Below are positions 30,880-41,713 of a DNA stretch of 64,000 nt, in pieces. Position 1 is the first letter of the stretch. Every line of letters begins with the position of its first letter. The notes beneath the pieces were generated by a model that had not been told where the DNA came from, searched no databases, and saw only the letters and a list, made by a program, of their open reading frames with translations. This DNA is from Actinotignum urinale DSM 15805 (GTDB lineage: Bacteria > Actinomycetota > Actinomycetes > Actinomycetales > Actinomycetaceae), in the NCBI RefSeq assembly GCF_000420445.1, contig NZ_ATUY01000009.1:1-64000 (forward strand), read 5' to 3'. Both the position numbers and the translations under genes were made by a program.

Positions 30880-31442
30880 TGCAACTCCTCAATTCATTCA
30901 TTCAGTCCCTTGTTGATTTACCCCGGCAAGAAGGAAGCGTTCTTCATGTCGACGAAACCTACGCGACCCCCGAAAATGTAAGCCTAGAAATGATTGGGGT
31001 TCCTGAAGGAAGCCCCATGGTGGCGTCCCTTGATATCACCTCAGTTTCGGAAGGCGTGTACGTAACCGGAACGGTGGGAGTTGATGTTGTTGGGCTGTGT
31101 GGGCGCTGTCTCGTCGACATTAACGAACATCGCGAAGAAGAGATTTCGGAACTTATTTTCTACCCGGAACGCAAAATTGCCCTTCTTGAAGAGGGCGACG
31201 ACGTGAAAGATTACCCCGAAATCGTCAAAGATTCCATCGATTTAGAGCCACTTTTCCGCGACGCGATCGTGCTGAATTTACCCTTCCGTCCACTGTGTAC
31301 CCCGAATTGCCGGGGCTTGTGCTCCGAATGTGGCGAACGGTGGGAAGATTTGCCGGAGGATCATTCTCATGAACTTCCCGCCATCAAATCCGATGCTTTG
31401 GATGCTTTAGAAGCGGTTTTGCGTGCAGAGGAAGGCAAATAG
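30879..31442 (+). CDS. DUF177/YceD family protein
   Basis: A 187-residue YceD/DUF177 protein, a family linked to 23S rRNA metabolism and ribosome assembly. Cysteines in LCGRCLVD near 68-75 and in LCTPNCRGLCSECG near 136-149 are arranged like a zinc site. GTG 30879 overlaps the previous stop by one base, and the gene's own stop overlaps the rnc start by one base. In many genomes rpmF (L32) follows this gene; here it is absent and rnc comes next. Confidence 0.88.
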   Translation: MQLLNSFIQSLVDLPRQEGSVLHVDETYATPENVSLEMIGVPEGSPMVASLDITSVSEGVYVTGTVGVDVVGLCGRCLVDINEHREEEISELIFYPERKIALLEEGDDVKDYPEIVKDSIDLEPLFRDAIVLNLPFRPLCTPNCRGLCSECGERWEDLPEDHSHELPAIKSDALDALEAVLRAEEGK

Positions 31443-32146
31443 TGTCATCGCATGAGTTACTTCTCGCCTGGGGAGCTCCGATTTCACGGCCACTTCTTCG
31501 TCGCGCCCTCACCCATAGAAGCTTCGCCTATGAACACGACGAACCACATAATGAGCGCCTGGAATTCCTGGGCGATTCAATTTTGGGTCTCATTATTGCC
31601 GAAAAAGTCTTCCGCGAATATCCAGACGCCAGCGAAGGCGACATGTCTCGCATGAAAACATACGCGGTATCCGAAAAAGCCCTCGCGGATGTTGCCCATG
31701 CCATTAACCTAGGTAAAGAAATCCGTTTAGGGCGCGGTGAAGAACGCTCCGGAGGGCGTGAAAAAGATTCAATCCTTTCCGACACCGTGGAAGCGTTAAT
31801 TGCTGCAACATATCTTGAAAACGGTATGGAGACGACGAGGGAAGTCGTTAGTGACCTTCTCGATCAAAAAATTAAGGATGCGTCCCTGCTTGGGCCAAAC
31901 CTTGATTGGCAGACAAGTTTTGAAGAGCTTGCTCGCAAACATGGTTATGAGGGAACCATGGAGTGCACGATAACATCAACCGGCCCAGATCATGCGCGAG
32001 TTTTTACGGCACAGGCATTCTTGGGAGGGGAGGCCTGGGGGAAAGGCGAGGGATCAAGCCAAAAAAATGCGCGCCACAAGGCGGCTGAGGCCTCATACCG
32101 AATGCTTGCGGGGCGCTGTGAAGATGAGAAGATGACAAAAAAATAA
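31442..32146 (+). CDS. rnc: Ribonuclease III
   Basis: Double-strand-specific endoribonuclease for rRNA and mRNA processing. The 234-residue product has the signature NERLEFLGDSILGL near 38-51 with metal-binding acidic residues, and a second acidic cluster DTVEALIAATYLENG near 114-128. A dsRNA-binding domain at about 155-224 ends in GSSQKNARHKAAEASYRML. GTG 31442 overlaps the DUF177 stop. It is the last gene of the coaD operon; no terminator hairpin is evident in the 97 bases before the response regulator. Confidence 0.94.
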   Translation: MSSHELLLAWGAPISRPLLRRALTHRSFAYEHDEPHNERLEFLGDSILGLIIAEKVFREYPDASEGDMSRMKTYAVSEKALADVAHAINLGKEIRLGRGEERSGGREKDSILSDTVEALIAATYLENGMETTREVVSDLLDQKIKDASLLGPNLDWQTSFEELARKHGYEGTMECTITSTGPDHARVFTAQAFLGGEAWGKGEGSSQKNARHKAAEASYRMLAGRCEDEKMTKK

Positions 32147-32243: not shown

Positions 32244-32882
32244 ATGTCCGAGTCCATTAGGGTTATGATTGTGGATGATCACGAAGTCGTGCGTCGCGGA
32301 ATTGTCGAAGTAGTCGATCGCTGTTCCGATTTAGAAGTTGTTGCTGAGGCCGCAAGCGTTAAAGAAGCCGTGAGGCGTGGAGAACTTGTCCGCCCAGATG
32401 TTGCACTTATTGATTTAAGACTTCCCGATGGAACCGGCATCGATATTATTAACCAATTCCACGATGTTACACCGGATACCAAATGTATTGTTCTCACCTC
32501 TTATCTTGATGATGAAGCCCTCGCTGAATCCCTGGCTGCGCAGGCAAAAGCATACCTTGTGAAATCCGTACGTGGCGCCGAAATTACAGATAATATTCGC
32601 GCAGTGGCGGAAGGCAGAATTCTTCTCGACGAAAAAGTTGTTGATCGCCACCGCATTGACAATAATGAGCCAACCGCGAACCTTACACCCTCAGAACGAC
32701 GAGTTCTCGACCTTATCGGCGACGGATTATCGAACCGCGAAATCGGTGAACGCCTGGGCGTGGCAGAAAAAACCGTGAAAAATCATATTACTTCTCTCTT
32801 AAGCAAAATGGGATTACAGCGCAGAACTCAAGCTGCCGCATGGGTTGCGGCGCAACGTGCAACAGGCTGGCGCCATCAGTAA
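32244..32882 (+). CDS. NarL/FixJ response regulator, DosR (DevR)-like
   Basis: A 212-residue regulator: receiver domain with acidic pocket D11-D12, phosphoacceptor D57 in VALIDLRLPDG and K107; LuxR-type helix-turn-helix at about 146-206. Its words match mycobacterial DosR closely (VDDHEVVRRG, LRLPDGTGI, LTSYLDDEA, AEKTVKNHITSLLSKMGLQRRTQAA). DosR drives hypoxia/dormancy genes. The cognate kinase gene faces it from the other strand, directly behind cydABDC, and a DosR-like palindrome lies upstream of cydA. The link with DosR is by sequence pattern; function here is inferred. Confidence 0.88.
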   Translation: MSESIRVMIVDDHEVVRRGIVEVVDRCSDLEVVAEAASVKEAVRRGELVRPDVALIDLRLPDGTGIDIINQFHDVTPDTKCIVLTSYLDDEALAESLAAQAKAYLVKSVRGAEITDNIRAVAEGRILLDEKVVDRHRIDNNEPTANLTPSERRVLDLIGDGLSNREIGERLGVAEKTVKNHITSLLSKMGLQRRTQAAAWVAAQRATGWRHQ

Positions 32883-33064
32883 CCCTAACGGATAGGAGCT
32901 ACCCGGCACCCAAGGAGCTGGTTGTAATGAAACAAGATGCTGGCGGTTTATCGATTAAGTTGTGGTTGGGGTATTTCAATAACAGCGCCGGTGGAAATCA
33001 ACGCGTCGGTTGAGTAAACCTATTGAAGTTTCCCGGTAACCCTAACGGAAATTAGCTTCCCAGG
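32879..33064. repeat. Duplicated 3' end of the sensor kinase gene
   Basis: The GTAACCCTAACGGA word that covers the kinase stop codon (33036-33049) recurs at 32879-32892, at the end of the response-regulator gene; similarity continues weakly for about 15 bases. Between the copies an ORF of 28 codons (32927-33013, ATG with AAGGAG nine bases before it) is visible; I cannot tell whether it is used. Confidence 0.55.
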
Positions 33065-34811
33065 TGAGCTGAGTTCCACTCGGTTCTATGGAGTGAGCCG
33101 TGAAATGCCCGTGTGAACGCCGTGCGCGCGCAGCTAAGTTTGACAGTCCGCTCCGCCTTTTCACATTGTGCATCCCCACTCCATTATCTTTTACTGTTAC
33201 CTTGACATGGCCCGGCGTAATCACCACACTGACAAACATTTCTGTTGCGTTAGCATACTTCGCAGCGTTCGTGAGCCCTTCACGAATGACAGCCACAATA
33301 TCGTCGGAAAGATCGGAACCAATAACGTCGTCAACCTCGGTACCGGCGCGTTCGTCGATTTTCTCTCCCATAAATTCCAGGTTGAGATGCGCAGTGAACC
33401 CTAACTGGCCAGTTATGCTGGACACTTCACGGGTGACGCGTTGGGCGATTGGAACGGTAGCTTTCGGATCACGTAGGGAGTAAATAATGCTTCGAATTTG
33501 CCCCACGGAATCGTCAATAGAAGAAAGTGCTTCATCGAGAGTTTTCATGACGAGAGGATCTGGGTGCTTTGCAGATAAATCATCACGCAAGGTTGAAAGT
33601 TTCAAGCCTGAAGCAAAGAGTTTTTGGATCGCAAAATCGTGCAAATCTCGCGAAATACGAGAACGATCTTCGAGTTGAAGCGCACGTGTTTGTAACTGGC
33701 GAGATGAGGCGAGTTCAAGTGCCAAAACAGCCTGGGTTGCCACATTTTCTGCCATGGAAAGATCTGTTAAATCAAATTCTTTCGAATAGCGGTTGCGTAC
33801 CAGCATAATCAGCCCCTGAGATTTGCCTTTATTAACCATGGGCACGAAAAGTACCGGCCCGAAGTTCTTGACACGTGCATCATCTAAAAGAGTTGCGGAA
33901 GCGAAATCTTCGAGAACACGCCCCATGGCGGCGTTTGCAGCTTCGCGTGCGCGTGAATTTGGAGGGAACTCCAAACCCACAAACTTGTGCGAATCCTTTC
34001 CCGAGGTGAACTCGCAAATCCAATTATCCCCAACTGAGGGCAAAATAATGAGAGCAATATCAGATTGGGAAACTCGTCGCATCGTGTCCGCAATAAGCTG
34101 GAGTGCATCTTCTTCGTCGGAACCTTCCAAGAGGGCGGTGGTAATACTGCGTGATGCCGTAATCCATCGGGCACGCGAAATGGATTCGAAGTAGAGAGCA
34201 GCATTTTCCAGGGCGGTGGCCGACGCTTGGGTAAGAAGCCTCACAGCTTGTTCATCTTCGTGTGAGTAGGTTTCCTTTCCCACGAGCATGAGTCGCGCAA
34301 TACTGCGTTGTTTCGTATGGATATCCGATATGAGGAATGGAGCGTTGTTGAACGACGAAAACTCTGCGTCACCTAGGTTGTCCGTTGCGGCTGCGGTGTT
34401 TTCTTCCGTTTTGTGCGTTACGTTGTGAGGTATATCGTTCGTTGAGTGCTCTGCTGGGCCCTCTGTTTCGTTATCTTGTTCCTCGGTCTGCACTATTTTG
34501 TCTGGAGAGCTCAACGGTTCGAGAAAAAGTGCGTCCGTAGGGCTCAGTTTTCTTACTTCGGTGTCTGTAATCGAAATGGTTTCCAGAAAATTCCGCAACG
34601 CCTTTTCATCTATTTCAGGCAGTCCAGCGTTGTCACCGAAGGTCAAAATATTCGTGATGTGCCCTAAACCGTCGAGTACACCTACATGGGCGATGGGAGC
34701 GCCGGTTACTTGGATACTTGTTTCGGCGAGGTTGTGGAGAATGCCCGCCCGGTCCATCCGTGTTGTGATAGTGAGGGCAGATTGTAGTAGAGAAGTATCG
34801 GGTTGTGTCAT
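33042..34811 (-). CDS. GAF-domain sensor histidine kinase, DosS-like
   Basis: A 589-residue kinase close in size to mycobacterial DosS (578). It has two GAF-type regions (about 15-200 and 220-370), then a HisKA_3 dimerisation helix with RSRISRDLHDFAIQKLFASG (phosphoacceptor H391), and an HATPase_c domain with an N box (EGLTNAAKYANA) and DNGVGMHN. There is no membrane segment, so sensing is cytosolic. GAF1 carries a roughly 40-residue acidic Glu/Thr/Asn insert near 108-150. The segment where DosS has its haem histidine (family HSFLGVP-type) reads SSFNNAPFLI, so haem binding is doubtful. ATG 34811 overlaps the cydC stop (ATGA), so it is co-translated with cydC. Partner: the convergent DosR-like regulator. 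Confidence 0.87.
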   Translation of the reverse strand: MTQPDTSLLQSALTITTRMDRAGILHNLAETSIQVTGAPIAHVGVLDGLGHITNILTFGDNAGLPEIDEKALRNFLETISITDTEVRKLSPTDALFLEPLSSPDKIVQTEEQDNETEGPAEHSTNDIPHNVTHKTEENTAAATDNLGDAEFSSFNNAPFLISDIHTKQRSIARLMLVGKETYSHEDEQAVRLLTQASATALENAALYFESISRARWITASRSITTALLEGSDEEDALQLIADTMRRVSQSDIALIILPSVGDNWICEFTSGKDSHKFVGLEFPPNSRAREAANAAMGRVLEDFASATLLDDARVKNFGPVLFVPMVNKGKSQGLIMLVRNRYSKEFDLTDLSMAENVATQAVLALELASSRQLQTRALQLEDRSRISRDLHDFAIQKLFASGLKLSTLRDDLSAKHPDPLVMKTLDEALSSIDDSVGQIRSIIYSLRDPKATVPIAQRVTREVSSITGQLGFTAHLNLEFMGEKIDERAGTEVDDVIGSDLSDDIVAVIREGLTNAAKYANATEMFVSVVITPGHVKVTVKDNGVGMHNVKRRSGLSNLAARARRSHGHFTAHSIEPSGTQLTWEANFR

Positions 34812-36736
34812 GCGTTTTCCTGATGGATTGACCATGCATATTCGGTGTTACGACGAAGAATGTTCTCGTGGGTTCCGTAATCCTTGACGTAAGTTATATT
34901 GTTATCGTTTTTCTCTAACACGATAACATTATCCGCTTCGTCAAGTGGTGATATTCGATGTGTTACGACGATAATGGTTCGTGGATCTATAGGATCTTTT
35001 CCGGCTCGGAGCAAATCGCGAATGAGAAGATCGGCAGTTTTTGGGTCGAGGTGTTCACCTGGTTCGTCGAGAAGAAGATATTGGGCGCCGGATGCGAGTG
35101 CGCGTGCCAGAAGGAGACGACGGCGTTCTCCACCGGAAATTGTTGCAGCATCCTCGCCGAGCATGGTGTGAACGCCGTCGGGAAGCTCTGCCAGCCATGA
35201 TCCTAAACCGGTTTTGTGGAGAAGGATAACGGCTTCGCGTTCGGTGACGTGGGGGTTTGCGACACGAAGATTTTCGAGGACAGTTGTTTCAAAAATATGT
35301 GCGTCTTCTGCCGTGAGAATGAGAAATTCGCTGACTTCTTCCCTGGGAATCGTTGCTATGTCTCGTCCGTTGTAACGAACAGTTCCCTGGTGAGCGGGTA
35401 GCATTCCAGCGAGCGTGAACAACAGTGTTGATTTTCCGATGCCGGAGGGGCCAACGATACCTAGGGATGTGGAAGGAGGAATGGTAAAGGAGAGAGGCTC
35501 GGAAATATCGGGATGACCTGGCCACCCCAGTACAGCGCGGTCAATAATCAATCCCTCAGGTGTTTTGCTGCTACGCGGGGAGGGCTCGGATGAGGAATCG
35601 GTACCCGAAGAATCACTGTGTGAAGGGGCGGTAAGTGAAGAGTCGGTGCCCGAAGAAACGCTACCCGAAGAATCACTGTGTGAAGGGTCGGTACGCGGGG
35701 AGTCGTTAGCCGAAGAGTCGCTAGGTTGGTGGGTAACCACGTTCTGAGTGTCGTGCTGTTCTGCTTTATCGAGCAGTTCGAGGATGCGCTGAGCGGCTTT
35801 TGCGGAAGTAACCAGCTGGATAGCCGATTCTCCAAGCCCCATTGTTGCTTCAAAAGCCGCCAGTGGAGTAAGAACACAAACAGCCAAAGCGGTTTGTGAA
35901 AGCGTGCCCGCAGCCAACTGTTGGCTTCCAATAATGATGGCGCACACCACCACAATCCCCATAGCAATCGTATCGATGGCCACAGCTAAAGCCTGGGGGC
36001 GAGCAGCGCCGTCGCGGTGGGTGAAAATGCGTTCTTCTGTTTTTCGCTGAATTATTTCTATGTCCGTTAGACGCCCAGACACACGAAGTTCGGTAGCCGA
36101 ATCGAGAAGGGTGAGCGCCTGGGAAGAAATTTCACTGCGATCTCTGACCTGGGATTCTTCGGCACGTCGCCCACCTCGCATAGCAAAGTAGGGAGCCACA
36201 ACGCCGGAAAGAAGAAGGCATAAGAACAAGACAACACCGATGGCGGGCGAAAGAATCCCTACAATCAGGCAGGAAGTAATACACACAACAACAGCCACGC
36301 ATGCCGGTTGAAGAGCCTTGACAATAAGGTCGCCAACAGAATCAACATCTCGCCCGGTGCGGGCAAGCAAATCCCCTCGTCGTATAGAGGTAATAACGTC
36401 TGTGGGGGACTGCGCAAGCGTTGAATAAACGTGGGAACGCAGGTGCGACATGCCGTAGAGCGTAACGCGATGGCTAAAAATGCGGTTCACGTAACGTAAT
36501 ACAGCCTTGGATACACCGAAGAAACGCACCGCGGTTGTAGCAACTCCCAAAACTAGAACGGGTGGCATTTGGGAGGCGCGAGTAATAAGCCAGGCAGAAA
36601 CGGCCGCCAGGCACACCGAGGAAATAAGTCCGCTCGCCCCGGCCGCTACCGAACCGATAAAACCGCCGGTTTTGACCTTGAGAAGGGGAAGGATTCGTCT
36701 AATGGCGCGTCGCTCATCTGCGGGGAAAACACTCAC
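34808..36736 (-). CDS. cydC: CydC half of the CydDC thiol/haem ABC exporter
   Basis: ABC half-transporter needed for cytochrome bd assembly; with CydD it exports cysteine/glutathione-type thiols. The 642 residues comprise six membrane segments (about 20-310) and a nucleotide-binding domain with GPSGIGKSTL, ISGGERRRLLLARAL and YLLLDEPGEHLD. Unusual: residues about 332-390, linking the two domains, are a run of Ser/Asp/Pro/Thr repeats (SHSDSSG, SGTDSS) absent from family members I know. GTG 36736 overlaps the cydD stop, and the kinase start overlaps its own stop, so the three are coupled. Confidence 0.9.
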   Translation of the reverse strand: MSVFPADERRAIRRILPLLKVKTGGFIGSVAAGASGLISSVCLAAVSAWLITRASQMPPVLVLGVATTAVRFFGVSKAVLRYVNRIFSHRVTLYGMSHLRSHVYSTLAQSPTDVITSIRRGDLLARTGRDVDSVGDLIVKALQPACVAVVVCITSCLIVGILSPAIGVVLFLCLLLSGVVAPYFAMRGGRRAEESQVRDRSEISSQALTLLDSATELRVSGRLTDIEIIQRKTEERIFTHRDGAARPQALAVAIDTIAMGIVVVCAIIIGSQQLAAGTLSQTALAVCVLTPLAAFEATMGLGESAIQLVTSAKAAQRILELLDKAEQHDTQNVVTHQPSDSSANDSPRTDPSHSDSSGSVSSGTDSSLTAPSHSDSSGTDSSSEPSPRSSKTPEGLIIDRAVLGWPGHPDISEPLSFTIPPSTSLGIVGPSGIGKSTLLFTLAGMLPAHQGTVRYNGRDIATIPREEVSEFLILTAEDAHIFETTVLENLRVANPHVTEREAVILLHKTGLGSWLAELPDGVHTMLGEDAATISGGERRRLLLARALASGAQYLLLDEPGEHLDPKTADLLIRDLLRAGKDPIDPRTIIVVTHRISPLDEADNVIVLEKNDNNITYVKDYGTHENILRRNTEYAWSIHQENA

Positions 36737-38562
36737 TTGCCCTCTCCTTCCTTGACTTCGCTCATAACGGTGCCCTGTGGTTGGGGTGAAACTTGTACCG
36801 TGCCTACTTGTGGTGTGGCTAATTTCGTTTCTCTTTCTGTTCTGGTTTGGTTTCCGTTTCGGGTTTCTGTTCTTGTTTCAAATTCCGTTCCGTTTGTGTT
36901 TTGTGCGACGCTGTCTGCGAGAGATTGTGTTGATGCGTAAACGTCCACAATGTTATCCGCCACCCCTATGAGGGCTTGCCTGTGCGCGATAACGATGACG
37001 GTACGTCCCGATTCGCGTAATTTTTGCACAGATTCGACGACGTGTTCCTCACTTCTTGCGTCAAGATGCGCGGAAGGTTCGTCAAGAAGGATAACGGGAC
37101 GTTCGCTGATGAGTGCACGTGTGAGCGCAAGGCGCTGCCTTTGCCCAACGGACAAGCCAACACCACCTTGGCCTATCATGGTATTCCAGCCTTGGGGAAG
37201 TGTTTCGATAACAGAATCAAATCCGGCAAGTCGTGCAGCTTCACGCGTTTTCTCATCGACAATTCCACCAATATTTTCGGCGACGGTACCTGGAATAAGA
37301 ACGGGACGTTGGGGTACCCACGTGATGTTGTTCCATAGACTTTCGCGCGAAATAGCGGAGAGAGGAACGTCCCCTATCGTAATATTCCCTTCGTCGGGGT
37401 CGAGGAAACGCATGAGAACATTTGTCGTCGTCGTTTTTCCTGAACCTGAAGGGCCACGAAGCACAGTAATCTCACCGGGGCGGAGAGTTGCTGTGAGCTT
37501 GGCTGGGGCGATTGTTTCACGGCCCGGCGCATATACGCTGAGGTTATTAATGTGAATGGTGCTTAAAGAAAGATCGGGGCATGGTTCTTGGCCATCAACA
37601 ACGGGAAGTGGCGTTTCGAGGATGTCGAACGCTTGATCAGTTGCCGCCACGCCGTTAGACGAAGCATGAAATTGGGTTCCAACATCGCGTAAGGGTTTAA
37701 AAACTTCCGGGGTAAGCATAATAATGGTGAGCCCTACGAACAGCCCCATATGCCCGGCAACCATACGCAAGCCTACTTCGACCGCAACAAGGGCTGTTGA
37801 GAGGGTGGTGAGGAACTCAAGGACGGCTCCGGAAAGGAAAGCAACATACAGCGTTTGCATCGTGGTTGCGGCGTAGGTATCTCCAAGGTGTTGGACACGT
37901 CCTTCGGGGTGTTTTTCCCGTCCTACGGCTTTGAGGGTGGTGAGTCCGGCGAGGAGGTCGAGCAGTTGCTGTCCCAGGCGTTGCATGGAGGCGAGGCGTT
38001 CGGAAGCAAAGTTTTGGGTGAGCCTGCCAATAAGAATCATGAAGAGGGGCACGAGGGGAATGCATAGAACAATGGCTAATGCACTAATCCAGTCGAGCCA
38101 CACAATGACGATAAGCGCTACCGGCATAACCGTGCAGGTGAGGATGAGCTGGGGCAAAAATTTTACGAAATATGGCTCTAAATCATCAAGACCCGAAGTT
38201 ACAAGAGTGACAGTTGAGCTTGAATGTCCTTGGGAGAGCCATCGTTCTCCAACGTCCCCTGCGTGGCGTACAACGCGGGCGCGCAAGTCCGCAATTGTTG
38301 TGAGAGCCGCTCTATGCCCGTAGGCTTCCCGCAGGTAGAGCAGTAGTGCGCGAAGCGCGAAAACAATGCCGAGCCAGGCAATACGCCACGACATATCCGA
38401 AAGTTCGGCGTATCCGTCGATAACGGGGGAGATGCTCCCGGCAATTAAGAGGCATTGGGCAAGAACAAGAACAGTTTCGCAAAACCCTAGGGCGCCCAGA
38501 AATATCACGTATTTACGCGCTGCACCTACGTATTTCATAAGGCGAGGATCGAGAGGTTTCAT
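36733..38562 (-). CDS. cydD: CydD half of the CydDC ABC exporter
   Basis: Partner of CydC in periplasmic redox balance and bd oxidase assembly. I start at ATG 38562 (MKPLDPRLMKYV), with AGGA upstream, giving 609 residues. It has six membrane segments in about 20-300, and an ATPase domain with GPSGSGKTTT, LSVGQRQRLALTRAL and VILLDEPSAHLD. The last 65 residues, beyond the ATPase fold, are an Asn/Thr/Glu/Arg-rich tail with alternating TET/TRT words, another low-complexity addition. It is separated from cydB by a terminator, so cydDC plus the kinase may have their own promoter or depend on read-through. Confidence 0.9.
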   Translation of the reverse strand: MKPLDPRLMKYVGAARKYVIFLGALGFCETVLVLAQCLLIAGSISPVIDGYAELSDMSWRIAWLGIVFALRALLLYLREAYGHRAALTTIADLRARVVRHAGDVGERWLSQGHSSSTVTLVTSGLDDLEPYFVKFLPQLILTCTVMPVALIVIVWLDWISALAIVLCIPLVPLFMILIGRLTQNFASERLASMQRLGQQLLDLLAGLTTLKAVGREKHPEGRVQHLGDTYAATTMQTLYVAFLSGAVLEFLTTLSTALVAVEVGLRMVAGHMGLFVGLTIIMLTPEVFKPLRDVGTQFHASSNGVAATDQAFDILETPLPVVDGQEPCPDLSLSTIHINNLSVYAPGRETIAPAKLTATLRPGEITVLRGPSGSGKTTTTNVLMRFLDPDEGNITIGDVPLSAISRESLWNNITWVPQRPVLIPGTVAENIGGIVDEKTREAARLAGFDSVIETLPQGWNTMIGQGGVGLSVGQRQRLALTRALISERPVILLDEPSAHLDARSEEHVVESVQKLRESGRTVIVIAHRQALIGVADNIVDVYASTQSLADSVAQNTNGTEFETRTETRNGNQTRTERETKLATPQVGTVQVSPQPQGTVMSEVKEGEGK

Positions 38563-38611
38563 TCCATTCCTGTTCGACGGGGATGTGGTGATATTGATTG
38601 ATACTACACGA

Positions 38612-38652
38612 AACAAAAACGTGGCCGCACAGTTGGACTATGCGACCACGTT
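38612..38652 (-). terminator. Intrinsic terminator after cydB
   Basis: Arms 38618-38629 and 38641-38652 pair with one mismatch around an 11-base loop; on the - strand they run into GTTTTTG. It splits cydAB from cydDC plus the kinase. Confidence 0.75.
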
Positions 38653-38658
38653 CCGGAG

Positions 38659-39777
38659 TTATTTCACTTCAAATTGGCGAATCTTTCGCGGTTCGAGTCC
38701 GACGGGTTCTTCGGGAATCTGGCCTACGTCGATGCGCTTGCGGAACATGTAGTATGCCCAGAATGTGTATGCGAGAACAATCGGAACAAAGACGATAGCG
38801 ACAACAAGCATAATCCCCTGTGTGGGTGCTGTTGCGGTTGCCTGTTCGATAGTGAGTGAATATGCGTCGTCGATATAGGATCTCATCGCGTACGGGAAGA
38901 TCATGGAGAAAATAGTGGCGACGGCAAACGCGATACCTGCGAAATGCAAACCAAAGGCAAGCCCATCTCGGTTCATCCACGTGAAGTAGACGGTTGCAAT
39001 GAGAAGGATTGCGCAGATGGCGAGCGGAATGATAGCAAATACCTGGTTGGAGTAGACGAAGTATGCCCACAGTGCCCAGACTGCTGTCAGGCCGGTGGAA
39101 ACAAGGGTTGTCTTCTTTGCGAGTCCCATGGCTCGCTTCTGAAGATCTCCGGAAACCTTAATGGAAATCCACAGTGCGCCGTGGCTCAAGCATAGGCTCA
39201 TCACAACGAGACCACCGAGAATAGTGAACGGAGTGAGCAAGGAGAAGAAACCACCTGTTAAGAAGTGATGGTTGGTTGCAAGTGATGAAACAACCTCACC
39301 GGGTGCAACTGCTACGAAGCTACCGGATTCGTAGGAGCCCACTTCAATAGCCATGCCCTGAACGAAGTTTGCGAAGGCAACACCGAAGAGGATGGTAACA
39401 ACCCACGAAACAACACAGTGAAGCATATCCCATGTTCCGCGCCATTTTTCGGTGCGAATCATTTTGCGCCATTCAAGTGCGCAAATACGAATGATGAGGC
39501 ACAGAAGAACGGCAACGAGAGCAATATACATGCCCGAAAACATGGTGGCGTACCATTCGGGGAAGGCGGCGAAGGTGGCGCCACCGGCGGTGAGCAACCA
39601 TACTTCGTTTCCGTCCCAGTGCGGGCCAATCGAGTTGATTAACGCCCGGCGTTCACGTTCGTTCTTGGCAAAGGGTTTCAAGAGCATACCTACACCGAAA
39701 CCGAAGCCTTCTAGGGCAACGTAACCAATCCAAAGAACGACGATGAGGATAAACCAAATAATCATTAAAAGTGTCAT
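38659..39777 (-). CDS. cydB: Cytochrome bd oxidase subunit II
   Basis: Membrane subunit of the quinol oxidase that reduces oxygen at high affinity without proton pumping. The 372-residue protein has about nine hydrophobic segments and the family start TLLMIIWFILIVVLWIGYVA, with LEGFGFGVGMLL and GPHWDGNEVWLL near 20-60. AGGAGG lies just before the ATG, overlapping the cydA stop region; the gap to cydA is 12 bases. Confidence 0.94.
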   Translation of the reverse strand: MTLLMIIWFILIVVLWIGYVALEGFGFGVGMLLKPFAKNERERRALINSIGPHWDGNEVWLLTAGGATFAAFPEWYATMFSGMYIALVAVLLCLIIRICALEWRKMIRTEKWRGTWDMLHCVVSWVVTILFGVAFANFVQGMAIEVGSYESGSFVAVAPGEVVSSLATNHHFLTGGFFSLLTPFTILGGLVVMSLCLSHGALWISIKVSGDLQKRAMGLAKKTTLVSTGLTAVWALWAYFVYSNQVFAIIPLAICAILLIATVYFTWMNRDGLAFGLHFAGIAFAVATIFSMIFPYAMRSYIDDAYSLTIEQATATAPTQGIMLVVAIVFVPIVLAYTFWAYYMFRKRIDVGQIPEEPVGLEPRKIRQFEVK

Positions 39778-39789
39778 GGTAACTTCCTC

Positions 39790-41295
39790 CTAGTACACAA
39801 GTTCCGGTGTGGCTTTGACATCGTATTCAACGACTTTCTTGTGGGTGTTGATACCTTCCTTGAGGTATCGTGCCAGTAGCCAGAACCACACAATGCCGAG
39901 CGACGTGTACAGCAGGGTAAATGCCGTCAAGGAGAAGGCAACACTTCCTGCATTGACAGAATGGGATACGCCGAGATCCGTCATGAGGAGAACCCCGTCG
40001 ACGTGACCAGGGTAGACAACCCACGGTTGGCGCCCAATTTCTGTGAGAATCCAGCCCGCCGTATTGGCGAGGAACTGGAGAGGAATCATCCAGAGCCAGA
40101 ATCTTCCCCACTTTTCGCTTCTGACTAATCTGTTTCCACGCAATACCCATAGGCCAACGGCGGCTATGAGGATATCAAGCAGGCCAACGCCGACCATCAC
40201 GCGGAAGGAGTAGTAGGAGACGAGAACATTAGGTGTTACTTCGTTCTTACCGTATGCTTCGGTGAATTTATCGACGAGTTCCTTGTTGACGTTTTCCATC
40301 TTGTGGATACGATCAAGGACCTTTTTATTGGCTTCGTCAATGGATTCGAGGCGTGATTCAGGACCGGTGAAGTGGTTCGTCATCATGAAGGATTCGAGGC
40401 CTGGAATCGGAACATATACCTGTGTTGCCGTATCGCAACTATTGCCGAACATGACGAGGGAGAGTTTAGCGCTTTCTTCTCCCTTGCATACGCCCATCAT
40501 GGCAGCTGCTTTAGTCGGCTGAATCTCTCCGAGGTGCTGACCCATGAAGTGACCTGAAGTTGCGGCAATAAGTGATGCCACGAGGGTGACTTTTAAGCCA
40601 AGTTTTGCGGTGGGTTTCCAGTAATCGCGTGCTTCTGATTCATTTCCTGTCAGACGAATGGAGCGAGCCATCCACCAGAACGCGAAACCTGCAACAAGGA
40701 CACCGGAAAGGGTGAATGCCGCTGAGATGGCGTGTGCAAATGTGTAAATCCATGTCTCGTTAGCGAAAAGCTTGAGGAAACCTGAAACGCCATCAAGTTC
40801 AGCGCGCCCTGTTTTTGGATTAAATACGGCGCCGTTGGGATTCTGCATGAAGCTATTTGCTGCAAGAATCCAGGCTGCGGACACCATGGTTCCGATGGAG
40901 AACAGCCATGCGCAGAGGTTATGAATCTTGGGGGAGAGGCGACCTTTTCCGAAGATCCACAAGCCGAGGAATGTAGATTCAAGGAAGAAGGCAAGAAGTG
41001 CCTCAAACGCAAGAGGTGCGCCGAAGATATCACCGACGAATCGGGAGTATTCAGACCAGTTCAAACCGAACTGGAATTCCTGAACGATACCTGTGGCAAC
41101 GCCAAGTGCGAAATTAATGAGCAGAATTTTGCCGAAGAAATCGGTAATCCGCTGCCATTTCGGATCGCCCGTTTTACGGGCTTTGGTCTGCATAAATGCG
41201 ACGATGAGTGACAGCCCAATGGTTAGGGGTACCTGGAACCAGTGGTACACAGTGGTGATACCAAACTGCCACCGAGCAAGGGTGATCGGATCCAC
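39790..41295 (-). CDS. cydA: Cytochrome bd oxidase subunit I
   Basis: Haem-bearing, quinol-oxidising subunit; 501 residues. The conserved N-terminus RWQFGITTVYHWFQVPLTIG holds the haem b595 histidine region. ESTFLGLWIFG has the membrane glutamate, and TEIGRQPWVVYPG carries the GRQPW motif. I choose GTG 41295 (VDPITLARW) because GGAAAGG precedes it; the upstream in-frame TTG is less likely. The upstream region has a GGGAC-N4-GTCCC palindrome at 41493-41506 and a TTCTAG/CTAGAA repeat at 41377-41396. It heads the cydAB transcript. Confidence 0.94.
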   Translation of the reverse strand: MDPITLARWQFGITTVYHWFQVPLTIGLSLIVAFMQTKARKTGDPKWQRITDFFGKILLINFALGVATGIVQEFQFGLNWSEYSRFVGDIFGAPLAFEALLAFFLESTFLGLWIFGKGRLSPKIHNLCAWLFSIGTMVSAAWILAANSFMQNPNGAVFNPKTGRAELDGVSGFLKLFANETWIYTFAHAISAAFTLSGVLVAGFAFWWMARSIRLTGNESEARDYWKPTAKLGLKVTLVASLIAATSGHFMGQHLGEIQPTKAAAMMGVCKGEESAKLSLVMFGNSCDTATQVYVPIPGLESFMMTNHFTGPESRLESIDEANKKVLDRIHKMENVNKELVDKFTEAYGKNEVTPNVLVSYYSFRVMVGVGLLDILIAAVGLWVLRGNRLVRSEKWGRFWLWMIPLQFLANTAGWILTEIGRQPWVVYPGHVDGVLLMTDLGVSHSVNAGSVAFSLTAFTLLYTSLGIVWFWLLARYLKEGINTHKKVVEYDVKATPELVY

Positions 41296-41492
41296 TTTTC
41301 GCCTTTCCAATTATGTACTGTGTGACATTCCAACCTGAAGACATGCTGAAATATGCCACCTAAGGACCTGTAATGGTTCTAGTTTAGACCCTAGAATGTT
41401 CGACAGTCGCCTTGAAAACTCCCTAGTGTGGCGCAGGGTATCCTCCTTTTAGGAAATGTAGCAAGGCTTTTAGAGACACCTTTCCCAAACTT

Positions 41493-41506
41493 GGGACAAA
41501 AGTCCC
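41493..41506. promoter_or_regulatory. DosR-box-like palindrome upstream of cydA
   Basis: GGGAC-AAAA-GTCCC is a perfect inverted repeat. It matches the invariant core of the mycobacterial DosR box (GGGAC, four A/T-type bases, GTCCC); the outer bases match poorly. It lies about 200 bases upstream of the cydA start, and a DosR-like regulator is in the same locus. Confidence 0.55.
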
Positions 41507-41632
41507 ACATAATATATTTTCCGTTACATTTGTAATACTTCGTCTCTATTTCGTTGGTGCGGGAAGGAAGGGAATATCGGCGCAAATACCTTTAACTTGT
41601 CACATACGCAAATGCATTCCTCATTAATGTTG

Positions 41633-41713
41633 GAGACCTATGTGGCGAGGTTCGAGACCTATGTAACGAGGTTCGAGACCTATGTAACGAGGTTCGAGAC
41701 CTATGTAACACGG
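41633..41713. repeat. 21-bp tandem array, nearly four units
   Basis: GAGACCTATGTAACGAGGTTC-type units (21 bases) start at 41633, 41654, 41675 and 41696. Units 2 and 3 are identical, unit 1 has two changes, unit 4 is truncated. The period is a multiple of three and of two helical turns, upstream of rne. Confidence 0.92.

Follow-up and report, generated by a model that had tools for sequence, protein, structure and literature searches.

Among the described systems closest to the one analyzed here is that of Mycobacterium tuberculosis, formed by the response regulator (RR) DosR (also DevR) and the histidine kinases DosS and DosT. The system analyzed here is encoded beside the cytochrome bd oxidase genes cydABDC of Actinotignum urinale DSM 15805, in the window, i.e., the whole stretch of 64,000 nucleotides that was studied (contig NZ_ATUY01000009.1 of assembly GCF_000420445.1, positions 1 to 64,000). 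H149 of DosS coordinates the haem iron, Y171 forms a hydrogen bond to the bound ligand, and K179, K182, and N183 of DosR contact the bases of the target DNA, as given in PMC4082495. The DosR consensus, TTSGGGACTWWAGTCCCSAA, has A/T (W) bases at both central positions of its spacer (PMC2275270). OsdR/OsdK of Streptomyces coelicolor also has a DosR-type regulator and a related palindrome, AGGGCCGATCGGCCCT, but it is tied to universal stress proteins, and the string "cyd" is absent from the main text of its description (PMC5069765). PolS-PolR of Microlunatus phosphovorus is a DevS/DevR-like pair with two GAF domains; its reported targets are phosphate and poly-P genes, and no word beginning with "cyd" occurs in the main text of the corresponding paper (PMC6754071). 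The DevR regulon of M. smegmatis differs in that cydAB is not included and the induction of cydA needs no DevR, according to PMC7739888. The best NCBIfam hits for the RR and the kinase of the window were to MadRS (NF047785/NF047786), with 149 and 55 bits, respectively; since these scores are far under the curated cut-offs of 300 and 500 bits, membership in MadRS was rejected. The terms "two-component" and "response regulator" are absent from the main text of the A. schaalii genome paper (PMC5720513), and no published description of a cyd-linked DosR-type pair was found among the matches listed, most subscription journals being outside the scope of the search.

We consider the locus to be a two-component switch of the DosR type dedicated to cyd, running from the kinase through the RR and a palindromic box upstream of cydA to cydABDC, with an input unlike that of DosS/DosT. 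The probability of this reading is roughly 75%. The module is real, conserved, and of the DosR kind, and its sensor side is altered in the lineage of the window; most likely, a DosR-type output arm was kept on cydABDC while the sensor was replaced or decayed. The evidence comes from the gene content and synteny of the locus, the conservation of the site, the family placement of the RR, and the absence of the haem motif from the kinase. Likeness to the M. tuberculosis system extends to the RR family and its recognition-helix residues, to the kinase plan of two GAF domains followed by HisKA_3 and ATPase domains, and to the GGGAC-N4-GTCCC core with an A/T spacer centre. In contrast to that system, the RR of the window belongs to a separate cyd-linked branch, and its kinase gene converges with that of the RR and is attached to the cyd operon, the kinase itself having lost the haem-ligand motif. 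The initial annotation, made from the letters of the window, was accurate about the genes, their coordinates, the RR motifs (LRLPDGTGI, AEKTVKNH, and RRTQAA), and the overlap of the kinase gene with cydC. It also placed a perfect GGGAC-AAAA-GTCCC palindrome about 200 bases upstream of cydA, exactly where it was found; the annotated start of cydA lies 196 bp away from the far edge of this box.

The solved structure closest to the RR is that of DevR/DosR (3c3w, 180 bits), followed by VraR (122 bits) and NarL (103 bits). In a tree of 100 rows, left after the removal of 29 close relatives, 8 rows for identical paralogues, and two with long branches, a broad DosR family of 92 rows was recovered with support of 100/100, excluding VraR, NarL, and other NarL-type RRs. 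The RR of the window is found there in a clade of 41 rows, 38 of which are cyd-linked, with moderate support (91/87). The mycobacterial DosR 3c3w lies outside this clade and groups with Mycobacterium sequences at 100/99. Thus, the initial assignment to DosR stands for the broad family and fails for the narrow mycobacterial clade. The same placement was obtained in a quick tree of 109 rows (7 near-duplicates were left out from 111 regulators), in which 63 of the 67 rows in the group of the window RR are cyd-linked. Residues K176, K179, and N180 of the RR correspond to the base-contacting K179, K182, and N183 of DosR; they match those of DosR and do not vary among 24 aligned sequences, nor does D57, the counterpart of the DosR phosphoacceptor D54. 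Each of 8 Actinomycetaceae genomes, the genome of the window included, has one DosR-family RR scoring at least 304 bits, the next best scoring at most 107 bits; therefore, this RR is the sole DosR-family candidate for reading the box in these genomes. The cyd-linked kind and DosR itself are both present in genomes of Pseudonocardiaceae. The two are therefore old paralogous lineages, and the earlier description of the locus as perhaps ancestral could not be kept. Two loci (L166 and L186) have an exact box at cydA together with an RR outside the cyd-linked clade.

The conservation of the box was assessed upstream of cydA in related genomes. Out of 64 loci with cydA, 55 were kept for the counts; the 9 others comprised 2 loci without a matched cydA N-terminus, 2 duplicates, and 5 further genomes of the genus of the window. 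Thus, the window stands for its own genus, while Demequina and Cellulomonas are represented several times each, and the cydA start in one locus (L042) was extrapolated from residue 164. Within 300 bp upstream of cydA, the GGGAC-N4-GTCCC pattern was found exactly in 21 of the 55 loci, from about 18 genera by genome labels, and with at most one mismatch in 33 loci. The mean in 100 shuffles of these upstream regions was 1.8 and the largest value was 5. Among all palindromes with 5-base half-sites and spacers of 0 to 12 bases, this pattern ranks first upstream of cydA, and the patterns next in rank represent the same box in overlapping registers. The two central spacer bases, which played no part in the choice of sites, are A/T at 66 of 68 positions in 34 sites, as in the DosR consensus. 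The box of the window corresponds to the DosR-box core GGGAC-TWWA-GTCCC, the outermost spacer bases of which vary among relatives; no conservation of the outer TTS/SAA flanks of the consensus was found at the cydA boxes. Exact sites are nearly lacking upstream of other genes of the same loci: cydB (0/55), cydC (0/52), the kinase gene (0/52), rnc (0/27), the RR gene (1/48), cydD (1/52), and rne (2/40). Five relatives of the same genus have the box near -198, three of them exactly and the others with one or two mismatches, so that its predicted presence in close relatives was confirmed. These relatives also have a second site, CGGACAAAAGTCCC, near -129; this second site is missing from the window. 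The credibility of the box thus stems from its recurrence at cydA in relatives and not from rarity, and the recognition of a DosR-type core in the initial annotation is borne out.

The kinase has the domain plan of DosS/DosT. A profile of 38 kinases of the cyd-linked type, with that of the window as the first, gave as its top match the haem-binding GAF-A domain of DevS/DosT (E-value 2e-36), followed by the ATPase domains of these proteins. Pfam alone detects one GAF domain, the first one being recovered by the profile and the structural model. The predicted structure (mean predicted local distance difference test score, pLDDT, 84.5) comprises GAF-A, a long helix, GAF-B, dimerisation helices, and an ATPase domain, with pLDDT below 50 for residues 115-154 in the ligand loop of GAF-A. 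A fold search with the whole model recovered a tandem GAF arrangement and a DosS-like ATPase domain (8sbm, at rank 46), with phytochromes and phosphodiesterases at the top; this search is silent on the ligand. The kinase is a descendant of haem-sensing DosS/DosT types. H149 of DevS sits in an HPPM motif, and in the alignment the HPxM motif is absent from the kinase of the window and from its five congeners; the position of Y171 is occupied by Met in the window. Thus, the DosS-like haem sensing of hypoxia proposed initially did not hold up. The phosphoacceptor H399 and the ATPase motifs are intact, and the kinase looks active, judging from its sequence, but not like a haem sensor of the DosS type. 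It probably does not read O2, NO, or CO via a DosS-type haem because both HPxM and the distal tyrosine have been lost, in this protein as well as in the five congeners.

A regular expression was used to trace HPxM among related kinases. Of the 32 kinases without cydC or cydD within 1.5 kb, 31 have retained it, the exception (L207) being a spurious frame; this set also contains L038, L070, and L152, which the RR or the match assigns to the cyd-linked kind. Among 67 cyd-linked kinases of at least 500 amino acids, HPxM is kept in 38 and missing from 29. These 67 include duplicates (L132 of L034 and L133 of L059), six genomes of the genus of the window, and one kinase (L159) whose extra N-terminus is not GAF-like. 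Nine further, shorter cyd-linked kinases have no HPxM. Five short cyd-linked kinases (L162, L167, L179, L182, and L195; 359-398 amino acids), from Pseudonocardiaceae and a member of Dermabacteraceae, are without the DosS-type GAF-A region, and four of them are accompanied by an exact box at cydA. On a tree of 60 rows, the presence of HPxM requires 6 changes. A site within one mismatch was found in 6 of 14 loci without the kinase HPxM vs. 21 of 32 loci with it, a weak trend.

The coordinates of all these features are given in the table. The genes for CydA, CydB, and the CydDC exporter form a single run by family searches, and the kinase gene on the same strand shares 28 bp with the end of cydC; the RR gene faces the kinase gene. 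This convergent layout, initially called unusual, is the norm. Among the best 40 regions (strongest matches first) out of 55 relatives with a kinase match, all from the same family or order, the kinase gene adjoins cydC on one strand in 38 and converges with the RR gene in 30; in the other 10, no RR was found within the stretch fetched. The true start of cydA is probably the in-frame GTG at 41295 and not the annotated TTG at 41310, which is immediately preceded by a stop codon; matches of relatives mostly start at residues 2-6 of the query.

Table. Features of the cyd locus of A. urinale DSM 15805, with positions in the window
Feature	Positions	Strand	Basis or remark
rnc	31442-32146		Named from sequence, no family search
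RR of the DosR/DevR family, receiver and LuxR-type HTH, cyd-linked branch, phosphoacceptor D57	32244..32882	+	
KTVKN recognition-helix motif of the RR, aligned with DosR K179-N183	32769..32783	+	3c3w alignment, numbering check, contacts from PMC4082495
Histidine kinase with two GAF domains and HisKA_3, no evident membrane segment, phosphoacceptor H399 in DLHD box	33042..34835	-	
Degenerate GAF-A of the kinase (about residues 12-190), homologue of the DosS/DosT haem domain, without HPxM, Met at the Y171 position	34266..34802	-	
Low-confidence insert of about 50 residues in the kinase (residues ~107-155), at the haem-ligand loop of relatives	34371..34517	-	Alignment; pLDDT
cydC	34808..36736	-	TIGR02868, 508 bits
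cydD	36733..38616	-	TIGR02857, 574 bits
cydB	38659..39777	-	PF02322, TIGR00203
cydA	39790..41310	-	PF01654; translation
DosR-type box GGGACAAAAGTCCC, upstream of cydA	41493..41506		Predicted site
rne, divergent	from 41839		Named from sequence, no family search

Two tandem repeats were observed in the same region. One has a 21-bp unit (GTTCGAGACCTATGTAACGAG; 3.9 copies, 95% matches) and lies at 41629-41709, between the cydA box and rne. The other has a 60-bp unit (2.2 copies) and lies within cydC at 35595-35723, where it encodes a Ser/Asp/Pro-rich linker before the ATPase part. No RNA element was found upstream of cydA by Rfam, the only Rfam matches in the whole window being two tRNAs. The terminator scan gave results near chance.

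In the proposed mechanism, the kinase would autophosphorylate on H399 and hand the phosphate to D57 of the RR. The phosphorylated RR would then bind the box upstream of cydA and set the transcription of cydABDC and the kinase gene, most likely upward. The kinase may respond to a ligand of GAF-B or to the redox or menaquinol state, or it may be active at a fixed rate. Since the kinase gene is the last of the run and overlaps cydC, higher cyd transcription would raise the level of the sensor too. DosR is an activator of its regulon. Activation is favored here for this reason and because 26 of the 34 sites lie 56-128 bp ahead of the annotated cydA start. The control of bd oxidase suggested in the initial annotation is thus supported by inference, and two-component switches of this kind very probably control the adjacent cyd genes in many actinobacteria.

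The occurrence of sites elsewhere was analyzed in the whole genome of the window (1.92 Mb, 29 contigs) and in relatives. The relaxed pattern RGGAC-N4-GTCCY has 5 places in the genome of the window, the cydA box included, vs. 8 for the reversed control; only one of the 4 extra places lies between genes, 271 bp upstream of dnaJ. Even with two mismatches allowed, no site was found at the pyruvate formate-lyase locus of this genome. A large regulon was thus rejected for this organism on account of the single exact site and a relaxed pattern below its control, and the "dormancy regulon" of the initial annotation was not upheld. The RR has one clear predicted target here, the cyd operon. The situation differs among relatives. 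Exact sites exceed the reversed control in some larger genomes: G021 (9 vs. 3), G013 (17 vs. 5), and G026 (20 vs. 5). In G021, which has one DosR-family RR, a crude open reading frame (ORF) method placed each of the 9 exact sites between genes. Their neighbors (L121-L126, L092, L093, and L088) include genes for pyruvate formate-lyase, fumarase, a NapC/NirT cytochrome, a radical-SAM protein diverging from an ADP-ribosylglycohydrolase, and a superoxide dismutase diverging from a receiver protein. These boxes form a candidate oxygen regulon, and a single DosR-family RR appears to serve a wider oxygen and anaerobic regulon in this genome. A site also precedes the genes for pyruvate formate-lyase in G028 and COX2 in G025. 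Only the tally for G021 is unselected, covering all 9 sites; for other genomes, mainly sites with A/T-rich spacers were considered. In G013, 2 sites are intergenic among the 11 of 17 examined, by a method that under-counts intergenic sites in GC-rich genomes and put the site upstream of cydA (L089) "inside" a gene. The idea that sites cluster near low-oxygen genes thus found partial support in relatives (G021, G028, and G025) and none beyond cyd in the genome of the window. In part, then, the box is tied to oxygen and anaerobic genes across the family, with the genome of the window pared down to cyd.

Several observations weigh against a cyd-dedicated switch of the DosR type. The exact pattern occurs at 1 place in the genome of the window vs. 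3 for the reversed control pattern, and is thus no more common than by chance, an outcome that the initial annotation had named as refuting; this is outweighed by the conservation at cydA. Exact sites are fewer than in the control in G008 (6 vs. 10), G010 (3 vs. 14), and G058 (6 vs. 15). Four of the 9 sites in G021 have no evident oxygen-linked neighbor, being located near a divergent DUF5692/TetR pair, a DUF1266 gene, an ORF of 122 amino acids without known function, and an adenylosuccinate-lyase-like gene. The three intergenic sites in G022 lie ahead of an MFS transporter gene, a gene for an ACT-domain protein, and an ORF with no Pfam match; in G026, a site lies ahead of a FecCD transporter gene. 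A site within one mismatch is lacking in 22 of the 55 cydA regions, among them those of several Actinomyces and Arcanobacterium with a retained kinase. A promoter scan yielded a single sigma-70-like match on the cydA strand; it would place the box approximately over the start site, a position that would fit repression, but the scan was near chance (2 matches found on both strands vs. 1.1 expected). Finally, a His of the insert falls in the H149 alignment column of the kinase, outside the HPxM context, and the GAF-A insert has further histidines.

This last point bears on the possibility that the locus is a true DosS/DosR hypoxia switch, with haem in GAF-A and a falling O2 level sensed as in mycobacteria. 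Such a switch would accord with the top profile match of the kinase to a haem-binding GAF-A and with the HPxM retained by more than half of the long cyd-linked kinases. We regard it as unlikely for the genome of the window, in view of the missing HPxM, the Met at the Y171 position, and the 50-residue insert at the ligand loop. The H149 column in the congeners, also outside the HPxM context, is occupied by H in four of the genomes and by Y in the fifth (L036), which speaks against a kept ligand; there is a small chance that the insert histidines form a rearranged, new haem site. A different regulator, of the ArcA/FNR, Rex, or CRP type, might instead control cydABDC, the box being minor or a relic. 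The A. schaalii genome paper ascribes the control of cydAB to ArcA/ArcB and FNR, citing work on E. coli (PMC5720513), and in M. smegmatis cydAB is under a CRP, with DevR not responsible (PMC7739888); the 22 cydA regions without a near-perfect box point the same way. However, the next unrelated exact palindrome upstream of cydA occurs in only 4 of 55 loci, in a scan blind to weakly conserved or non-palindromic sites. Moreover, the box is present at cydA even where cyd is not adjacent to the RR: in G007, no cyd gene was found beside the RR and kinase genes, and the distant cydA (L117) has an exact box 74 bp upstream. Control by another regulator is therefore improbable in our judgment. That the palindrome is a chance match, with the two-component system acting elsewhere, would fit its single genome-wide copy. 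For the window as such, 0.07 copies are expected by chance, 7 of 100 shuffles containing one. Against a chance match stand the 21 exact copies at cydA across genera, the A/T spacer centre, and the nearly empty control regions, and we regard this explanation as very improbable. A cyd-dedicated DosR-type switch with an altered sensor thus accounts best for the observations.

Knowledge of how bd oxidase is controlled in actinobacteria is patchy: a CRP is involved in M. smegmatis, with DevR excluded (PMC7739888), and ArcA/FNR are assumed for Actinotignum (PMC5720513). The conserved set of a regulator, a sensor, and a predicted site at cydA spans Actinomycetaceae, Cellulomonas, Demequina, and Pseudonocardiaceae and gives a directly testable prediction for many species. 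The repeated loss of HPxM with the DNA-binding side kept is a natural experiment on sensing by GAF-B and the remainder of a DosS-type kinase. Tentatively, and with considerable room for error, it may be proposed that the bd-oxidase operon has stayed under the DosR-type output arm across actinobacteria, with several losses of the gas sensor, and that the kinase in Actinotignum and others now reads a non-haem signal such as the quinone-pool redox state or the flux through the oxidase. If so, this oxygen-reductase circuit would listen to its own substrate or product and not to O2.

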